DNA of 64,000 bases, from the NCBI RefSeq assembly GCF_021295095.1, contig NZ_JAJLQX010000018.1:1-64000 (forward strand), given 5' to 3'. Below the pieces are notes generated by a model. That model did not search any database and was not told the DNA's origin. It worked only from the letters and a program-made list of their open reading frames with translations. Position 1 is the first letter of the stretch, and each line of letters starts with the position of its first letter. Both the position numbers and the translations under genes were made by a program. Positions 23,571 to 54,539 of this stretch are shown in pieces. This stretch comes from Phocaeicola oris (GTDB lineage: Bacteria; Bacteroidota; Bacteroidia; Bacteroidales; Bacteroidaceae).

Positions 23571-23688
23571 TTGCGTAAGGAGGCGGAAGGTGATGCATAT
23601 AGCCGAATAAAGTGATCCGCATGAATCATTCAACTCATCCGCATGAACCGATCAACTCATCCGCATCACTTTTTATCTTCATACGCAT
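23571..23688. repeat. 22-bp phased repeat array A
   Basis: Four clear cores, ATCCGCAT at 23615, 23637 and 23659 and ATACGCAT at 23681, start exactly 22 bases apart. Two degenerate cores continue the phase to the left: ATGCATAT at 23593 and TTGCGTAA at 23571. Spacers resemble one another (GAATCATTCAACTC, GAACCGATCAACTC). The clear part is bracketed by AAAGTGAT and ATCACTTT. It lies downstream of both flanking genes. Confidence 0.8.
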
Positions 23689-34092: not shown

Positions 34093-34188
34093 ATATGTAT
34101 CATCGGGCGAAGTGATACGTATGAATCTCCCAACTCATCCGCATGAACCGATCAACTCATCCGCATGAACTTGTCAACTCATACGTAT
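34093..34188. repeat. 22-bp phased repeat array B
   Basis: Clear cores ATACGTAT at 34115, ATCCGCAT at 34137 and 34159, and ATACGTAT at 34181 are 22 bases apart; a degenerate core ATATGTAT at 34093 extends the phase. The two outer clear cores are perfect palindromes. Spacers (GAATCTCCCAACTC, GAACCGATCAACTC, GAACTTGTCAACTC) resemble those of array A, and the second is identical to one there. Confidence 0.8.
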
Positions 34189-34331
34189 CAGTTTTGGAAG
34201 AGATGACCGTCATCCTATTTGTTCATGCTGAATGCTTTAACTGCCTAAATAAAAAGTATGCACGAACACCTGATACTATTCTTAGCTTACGGATTTTTTA
34301 TATTTTATTCTGACAGAATAAACAAAAACAG

Positions 34332-43137: not shown

Positions 43138-43386
43138 GTATATTTCTTTATATTCTGAACGACGACAATGAATTAATCGAGATGGTCTTCTGAGTTTTAA
43201 CATTCAAAGACCGATTAGTCCACTTTAACGGGAAGGTAGTGATTACAGATGAAAATATTAAAATGTGTGGGTAAAATGAATAATGTGAGTTTCGACGATT
43301 CTAAAACAATACGAACAGTGCGTCATTGTTCCTTTTTAAATAGATACACTGCTTAGAGAATATCAACAATATAAGCTACTGATTTG

Positions 43387-43504
43387 ATGTGTATGAGTTG
43401 TTCAACTGACGCGGATGAGTCAACAAGTTCATGCGTATGAGTTGACAAGTTCATGCGGATGAGTTGGTCGGTTCATGCGTATGAGTTGCTCGATTCATGC
43501 GTAT
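43387..43504. repeat. 22-bp phased repeat array C (six copies)
   Basis: Cores at 43387 (ATGTGTAT), 43409 (ACGCGGAT), 43431 (ATGCGTAT), 43453 (ATGCGGAT), 43475 (ATGCGTAT) and 43497 (ATGCGTAT) are exactly 22 bases apart. Relative to arrays A and B the consensus is reversed (GAGTTG follows rather than CAACTC preceding). Spacers vary more than cores: GAGTTGTTCAACTG, GAGTCAACAAGTTC, GAGTTGACAAGTTC, GAGTTGGTCGGTTC, GAGTTGCTCGATTC. Confidence 0.85.
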
Positions 43505-43812
43505 GACTTTTCCTCCGTCTCTTTATGACCATTTTAATGGATCAAACAAAAGGGGAAAAACACCTTACCAACATGCTATATGGACCATATTCTACCCTTG
43601 TAGGTTTCTGCGTGACCTTTCTGTTATTTCATTGAACTCACGTTAAATTAGGAGAGTGGGAGAGGAATAATTAAACATTTCTGATCACAAATAATAGCTT
43701 TCATTCTTTATTACTACATTTCAATTGTTAGTCGACTCTTTAACTCATCAAAAAATAAGCAGGTTTTGCGAAATTTTATGGCCAATTAATTTTTTCTTTC
43801 AAACGGAAGCAC

Positions 43813-54317: not shown

Positions 54318-54421
54318 AGAGTAATTTTGGCAACGTACAAGCGTTTGTTTGTTTTCCTCTATTCTTTTTTTTATACGATGGGCATCACATAAACTGTTCA
54401 TGAATATAAAGATTTAAACTC

Positions 54422-54539
54422 ATCCGTATCAATCGTCAAAGTGATACGCATCAATCGTTCAACTCATGCGGATGAATCGATCAACTCATCCGCATGAGTT
54501 GCCGAACTCATCCGCGTCATTTTTCACTTTCATCCGCAT
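54422..54539. repeat. 22-bp phased repeat array D (six copies)
   Basis: Cores at 54422 (ATCCGTAT), 54444 (ATACGCAT), 54466 (ATGCGGAT), 54488 (ATCCGCAT), 54510 (ATCCGCGT) and 54532 (ATCCGCAT) are exactly 22 bases apart. The array mixes both orientations of the core. One unit is an almost complete palindrome, CAACTCATCCGCATGAGTTG (54482-54501). A weak seventh core, ATGAATAT, is in phase at 54400. Confidence 0.85.

Follow-up and report, generated by a model that had tools for sequence, protein, structure and literature searches.

The closest named counterpart of the arrays described here is BrickBuilt (with MITE464/PgRS) of Porphyromonas gingivalis, in which a MITE leader and tail surround an intergenic tandem array of degenerate units, as they do here. 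As described, the BrickBuilt unit has 23 nt (AGAYCATARTATCCTCTCRTRTG), the ends read GAGACCTTTGCA (GAGACC...), a genome holds 18 or 19 copies of 1 to 22.8 units each, and leader and tail are present in 11 of 19 copies and both absent from 3 (PMC4596501). None of the words helical, palindrom and spacing is used in the main text of that paper. The same source mentions P. gingivalis repeats of 22 and 41 nt, which correspond to periods of two or four helical turns, and assigns ISPg3 to IS5; ISPg3, MITE239 and MITE700 have ends that resemble those found here (PMC4596501, Table 2 and section 7). MITECca01 of Cardinium is an IS982-derived element of about 240 bp with 169 mostly intergenic copies; it is comparable to the candidate MITE described below, whose ends are like those of an IS982-like element, and to its intergenic location, and the word tandem is absent from the main text of its description (PMC9769881, in part). 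REP/BIME elements are dispersed, intergenic, palindromic, species-varying and sometimes tandem, as are the arrays here, and at one end they bear a tag, either GTAG or CGTC, the GTAG type being associated with a RAYT transposase (PMC3733652, in part). Unlike REP/BIME, the units here run head to tail at 22 bp, and a REP/RAYT assignment was rejected because their consensus contains neither GTAG nor CGTC and the Y1 transposase family PF01797 has no match in the genome.

Here we describe arrays in a window of 64,000 nucleotides from Phocaeicola oris, which is part of contig C9 in a genome of 2.98 Mb assembled in 50 contigs. The names of protein relatives point to kinship with Bacteroides and Parabacteroides. 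The locus differs from BrickBuilt in its unit, which has 22 nt and an unrelated sequence, and in its ends, which are of the type ACGTGARTTCGAYGAA; the BrickBuilt-like arrangement of leader and tail with terminal inverted repeats is found for one array of the window and for a minority elsewhere. In the literature on this group, with subscription journals thinly covered, we found no account of even spacing or of a two-turn phase.

Unit anatomy and phase

Four intergenic regions of the window carry cores at exact 22-bp steps, and none of the four arrays overlaps a called ORF. With strands given in the direction of the half-site GAGTTG, array A (23609..23688, minus strand; cores at 23615, 23637, 23659 and 23681) lies between convergent genes, with AAAGTG preceding its first core and CACTTT following its third. 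Array B (34109..34194, minus strand; cores at 34115, 34137, 34159 and 34181) lies between tandem genes, and array C (43387..43510, plus strand; six cores from 43387 to 43497, plus GACTTT) and array D (54416..54539, minus strand; six cores from 54422 to 54532) lie between divergent genes. The earlier note had listed 20 cores without a slip in spacing, and all 20 positions indeed hold a core, 17 of them in the strict form ATNCGNAT and three with one fixed base off (43387, ATGTGTAT; 43409, ACGCGGAT; 54510, ATCCGCGT). The strict form occurs 40 times in the window, with 12 pairs 22 bp apart, 9 pairs 44 bp apart and 5 pairs 66 bp apart, while every other distance from 8 to 79 bp has at most one pair. 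Tandem Repeats Finder reports a period of 22 at all four arrays.

The survey was extended to 819 kb, made up of the window and three whole contigs and amounting to about a quarter of the genome, with an array defined as a run of at least three cores with no more than one mismatch, two of them strict. It yielded 47 arrays of this first family (4, 24, 12 and 7 by stretch). Together with the 12 window pairs at 22 bp, against at most 1 in 200 sequences simulated with a first-order Markov model, this bears out the view that such arrays are commoner than chance. Among strict-core pairs 12–32 bp apart, 159 of 160 are at 22 bp and one is at 32 bp, and the phase is kept through 527 differences from the majority 14-mer over the 159 spacers of 14 bp. 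Of all 452 strict-core pairs within 139 bp, 422 keep to the 22-bp comb and 30 do not. In 25 of these 30 the distance falls short by a single base, and in every such case an ATCARAAG insert, present at six places, lies between the two cores, which makes the shift a constant trait of some leaders rather than random slippage.

The oriented consensus of 111 inner units is CRRTTC ATGCGKAT GAGTTG NN (22 nt). With orientation not chosen, two positions outside the search motif are nearly fixed: 213 of 215 units have T at −2, and 209 of 215 have A at 9. The adjacent positions −1 and 8 are both C or G in 198 of 215 units but exchange these two letters freely. Such a juxtaposition of fixed and swapping positions is expected from selection and not from slippage. 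The units are directional quasi-palindromes, mostly arranged head to tail: neighbouring cores are identical in 71 of 159 cases and reverse-complementary in 15. The idea that the core changes symmetrically did not survive, since complementary letters stand at positions 3 and 6 in 15% of the 215 strict cores of the 47 arrays, compared with 35% after shuffling.

The arrays are also bounded in size and distinct at their ends. With one-mismatch cores counted, they have 3 to 9 units, and 33 of 47 have 5 or 6. The half-site xACTT is found at 38 of 94 outer positions and 48 of 444 inner ones, and GAGTT shows the reverse distribution (7 of 94 outer, 174 of 444 inner); by array, xACTT stands on both sides in 6, on one side in 26 and on neither in 15 of the 47. 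Two other readings of the arrays were discarded. A CRISPR is inconsistent with what lies between the cores, which is a shared consensus (GAGTTGNNCRRTTC) and not a series of unique spacers, and a coding repeat is inconsistent with a unit length that is not divisible by three.

The earlier note had favoured cooperative binding by a symmetric protein over simple tandem duplication. The exact phase and the selected letters speak for this preference, but the supposed symmetric change of the core is not found and the units run head to tail; even so, sequence comparison supports the view that the dispersed family would fit a protein on one helix face better than plain tandem duplication. We give about an even chance to a model in which the arrays are phased sites for a putative dimeric protein and have been spread in part by MITEs. 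Under this model, quasi-palindromic sites, one per two helical turns, would be bound by a putative symmetric and probably dimeric protein whose copies would lie next to one another along a single helix face, and distinct outer half-sites (CACTTT, CAGTTT, GACTTT) may often bound the row.

Array families across the genome

A sequence-only three-unit profile (R1), built from 46 of the 47 arrays, has at least 203 matches in the genome (128 of 1811 candidates scored), which overlap within arrays and so are not a count of arrays. A scan of intergenic DNA for self-likeness (threshold 42 of 66) found 56 places at lag 22, 43 at twice that lag (44) and 4 at lag 41, with 0 or 1 at each of the remaining lags from 14 to 49. 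Fourteen of the lag-22 places are additional to the 47 arrays. Three of these are variants of the first family, and the others include 22-bp families (TCACGTGCGTGATACACATGCA, TCTCAATTGAGATTAACACGTA and GTTTCACNTNNGTGAAACAAG) with sequences unrelated to it, which brings the total in the 819 kb to 61 arrays. A further 74 elements were placed on other contigs that have at least two, 14 of them identified by a MITE tail alone. Over a hundred arrays have therefore been located in the genome, and their density implies a total of about 200.

In four hybrid arrays (C33:90173, 113937, 121981 and 145224), a 22-bp array of the form GTTTCAC...GTGAAAC adjoins units of the first family. In two of the cases both kinds of unit were seen within a single MITE. 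The arrangement looks as if inner units had been exchanged.

Association with an IS982-like MITE

A candidate MITE of 361 bp (43283..43643, plus strand) encloses array C, with a leader before the array, a tail after it and inverted ends that resemble those of an IS982-like element. The left end, ATGTGAGTTTCGA at 43283-43295, was recognised by eye and is absent from the two-mismatch list of ends, and the right end at 43628-43643 is ACGTGAGTTCAATGAA on the minus strand with one mismatch. A search with 43511-43700, which contains the tail (43511..43643, plus strand), gives at least 32 genomic matches, one of them the query itself, with 40 of 63 candidates scored. No target-site duplication was seen by eye at this MITE (left ATA, right TAA); as for a near relative with an empty site, 400 kb of genome G001 aligned to our own contigs over just 23 kb, at 70% identity. 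Searches of plasmid and phage collections gave no match to the MITE, and Rfam at gathering thresholds returned only a tRNA.

The end ACGTGARTTCGAYGAA, with up to two mismatches, occurs 75 times in the genome, compared with 2 occurrences of a reversed control pattern, and a hand count from this list gives ten inward-facing pairs spanning 154 to 648 bp. Array content is known for four of the ten: C33:121856-122303 contains an array, C33:99849-100230 contains a few degenerate units, and two pairs on C4 overlap array matches. Ten ends lie 105–110 bp from a contig end, which points to assembly breaks in a multi-copy insertion sequence. An ORF begins 103 bp inside a ACGTGARTTCGAYGAA-type end at both C5:15705 and C1:1842. 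The C1 ORF (121 aa) matches the first 61 of 243 positions of NF033520, the IS982 transposase model, with 28.9 bits (E = 7.8e-7), below the cut-off of 130; a relative on C13 (308 aa, 36% identical over 73 residues) scores 220 bits; and a Pfam search of the C5 ORF gave no match. For these reasons we call the element IS982-like. No complete copy of the element, with an end on each side, was found. In the segment C1:1195-1842 the MITE tail stands at one end and the start of the IS982-like transposase at the other, and the MITE is therefore probably a deletion derivative; the segment itself looks like a step in the origin of the MITE.

These observations bring in a possible alternative, though not the one that we favour, in which the arrays are selfish minisatellites of BrickBuilt-type MITEs and serve only as cargo or as internal repeats bound by the transposase. 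The position of array C between two such ends, the excess of ends over the control, the inward-facing pairs, the C1 segment and the intergenic location shared with BrickBuilt are all as this alternative would have it. Conversely, 27 of the 61 arrays have a flank in common with another array and 34 have none in common with the others. A 12-base scan found an end within 600 bp of 9 arrays, with both ends for one, although some of these may be chance, and found none within that distance for 52 of 61. In 24 arrays with neither a shared flank nor a nearby transposon end, the letter constraint is equally strong (110, 107 and 99 of 110 units), and the narrow range of unit numbers differs from the 1 to 22.8 of BrickBuilt. 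The concern raised beforehand, that the arrays might prove to belong to a known element, is borne out in part: it applies to array C, which the earlier note had called the cleanest, although 34 arrays have flanks unlike those of the other arrays. In the model of phased protein sites, the IS982-like transposase would move MITEs that carry some arrays, array C among them, as cargo, and the MITE ends would decay after transposition while the array was retained.

Spacing along the chromosome

The shortest of the 57 gaps between the 61 arrays measures 4.4 kb, and the median is 10.6 kb. Arrays no more than 400 bp apart were merged into one, so that hybrid arrays within one element do not contribute gaps. 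Only 3 of the 57 gaps are shorter than 5 kb, compared with a mean of 15.8 and a lowest value of 7 in 2000 random intergenic placements. The coefficient of variation of the gaps is less striking (37 of 2000 permutations reached so low a value), owing to several voids of 30–57 kb. These array-free voids, at C22:96-153 kb, C33:28-73 kb and C11:235-265 kb, could be acquired islands. The 14 arrays outside the first set, which include the three first-family variants, keep their distance as well: none has a neighbour within 5 kb, compared with 7.2 expected, and 1 of 2000 simulations was as low. On the 14 other contigs with at least three elements, 0 of 44 gaps are below 5 kb against a null mean of 8.6, with incomplete lists and a uniform null.

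If the arrays were MITE minisatellites, even spacing could arise from transposition immunity or from the recombinational loss of close pairs, but the arrays of the other families also keep their distance. If they are instead sites for a protein, the spacing, with a median gap of about 10 kb, may reflect a role at the scale of the chromosome, such as marking or anchoring nucleoid domains, rather than the regulation of single genes. One difficulty for this reading is that, if each family had its own protein, even spacing across families would need a further explanation, and if a single protein bound them all, the divergence of their sequences would be odd.

Array direction correlates weakly with GC skew (r = 0.39, p = 0.007) in a post hoc comparison; without ambiguous arrays, 42 remain and p is 0.06.

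Gene context, RNA folding and gyrase wrapping

Of the 46 first-set arrays with neighbouring genes on both sides, tandem regions hold 20, convergent regions 15 and divergent regions 11, compared with 76, 39 and 44 background intergenic regions of at least 200 bp. Gene calls here are crude longest ORFs; 42 of the 46 arrays overlap none, and four overlap one by 23–53%. In relatives, 19 arrays are tandem, 11 convergent and 7 divergent, against a background of 210, 85 and 106. With gene context near background in both this genome and relatives, a function as terminators or promoters was rejected.

It is unlikely, in our estimation, that the arrays act as RNA elements whose hairpins, formed once the arrays are transcribed, would serve in the termination, stabilisation or processing of transcripts. 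Folding of the GAGTTG strand does give z-scores of −3.6 to −5.0 relative to shuffled sequences in all four arrays folded, and a terminator-like hairpin lies at the end of array C. Opposite two T residues of the spacer, A or G, which would pair with them, occurs in 150 and 145 of 159 spacers, and with G-U pairs counted, the pairing of cores at a distance of three or four units is somewhat above that of shuffled ones (2 to 88 of 1000 shuffles as high). However, there is no excess of Watson-Crick pairing within cores, between neighbours or at any distance tested, and compensatory changes are absent, both across the spacer and inside units. The 11 of 46 arrays between divergent genes, a share near background, are a further point against a role in transcripts.

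We consider it very improbable that the arrays are strong DNA-gyrase wrapping sites that mark supercoil domains, as E. coli BIME-2 might suggest. According to PMC6379681, BIME-2 elements serve as gyrase sites, and in E. coli the gyrase motif shows a GC periodicity of 10.75 bp. The length of 5 or 6 units (about 110–130 bp), the two-turn phase, the positions at which G and C are swappable and the even spacing would all suit such sites. The predicted GC signal failed to appear, however: in 50 array sets, S/W power near 10.5–11 bp was 0.073, compared with 0.089 expected. Two signals that had not been predicted were seen in the same range, in purine/pyrimidine power (0.138 versus 0.089, Fisher p = 1e-5) and, less so, in keto/amino power, which was above shuffles (0.123, p = 0.003).

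From the phase, the selected letters, the distinct ends, the narrow unit number and the even spacing with no marked bias in gene context, taken together, we infer that a row of dimer sites would explain the arrays better than RNA elements or inert repeats.

Arrays in relatives

The sequence of the first family is nearly private to the genome of the window. R1 matched 2 of 39 relatives, with two hits at a single locus of G001 and one in G006, and, under stricter filters, 2 of 117 other Bacteroidota genomes (G047 and G052). The geometry is more widespread. In 1.34 Mb made up of 80 loci around one gene, the leading lags are 21 and 22. In 140 loci (2.41 Mb), nearly all from named Bacteroidales or from the genus of the window and with crude gene calls, we found 52 intergenic tandem arrays, with periods of 21 (16 arrays), 22 (15), 23 (2), 41 (5) and 42 (3) and 11 others scattered, so that 33 of 52 have periods of 21–23 bp and 8 of 52 have periods of 41–43 bp. 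Palindromy is significant in 12 of 41 phased arrays of relatives. A small control of 18 stretches from other Bacteroidota (358 kb, of which 56 kb is intergenic) contains 6 arrays, one of them at 22 bp, in a stretch that had been picked for its R1 match.

Arrays of relatives can be dispersed in their own genomes. With both strands counted, an array from an uncultured Parabacteroides (L134) has 46 matches in its own genome and one from Parabacteroides sp. PF5-9 (L122) has 80; the former also has 25 weak matches in PF5-9, and neither has a match in the window's genome, G001 or G006. The array of G001 occurs once in G001, with 14 weak matches in the window's genome, which indicates that relatives' arrays are not always dispersed. 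A lag scan from 10 to 89 over 400 kb of PF5-9 found 18 places at 22, 10 at 44, 2 at 12 and none elsewhere. The arrays there fall into three families, two of them dispersed and one found a single time, all unrelated to the first family, and 0 of 35 gaps are below 5 kb, compared with a null mean of 5.3.

A tentative and rather doubtful generalisation from these comparisons is that Bacteroidales chromosomes may be punctuated every 5–20 kb or so by two-turn phased palindromic arrays that would organise the chromosome and whose geometry and spacing are kept while their sequence diversifies from species to species and even from locus to locus, with a putative protein family reading them and MITEs as one route of spread. 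If the spacing and phase across unrelated sequences were confirmed, these sites would mark the chromosome by geometry and not by one sequence, and would provide a handle on nucleoid organisation in a major gut phylum. Even if the arrays were MITE cargo, the 22-, 23- and 41-nt repeats of Porphyromonas would be linked to a pattern present in many relatives.

At L101, L103, L112, L134, L244 and other loci, arrays of 21–23 or 41–43 bp have a sequence that differs per locus, even within G001. Finally, two loci from the same phylum but a different class, L262 (G047) and L263 (G052), carry a few 22-bp repeats with the CAACTCAT and GACTTG half-sites of the first family, which could reflect horizontal transfer or convergence.
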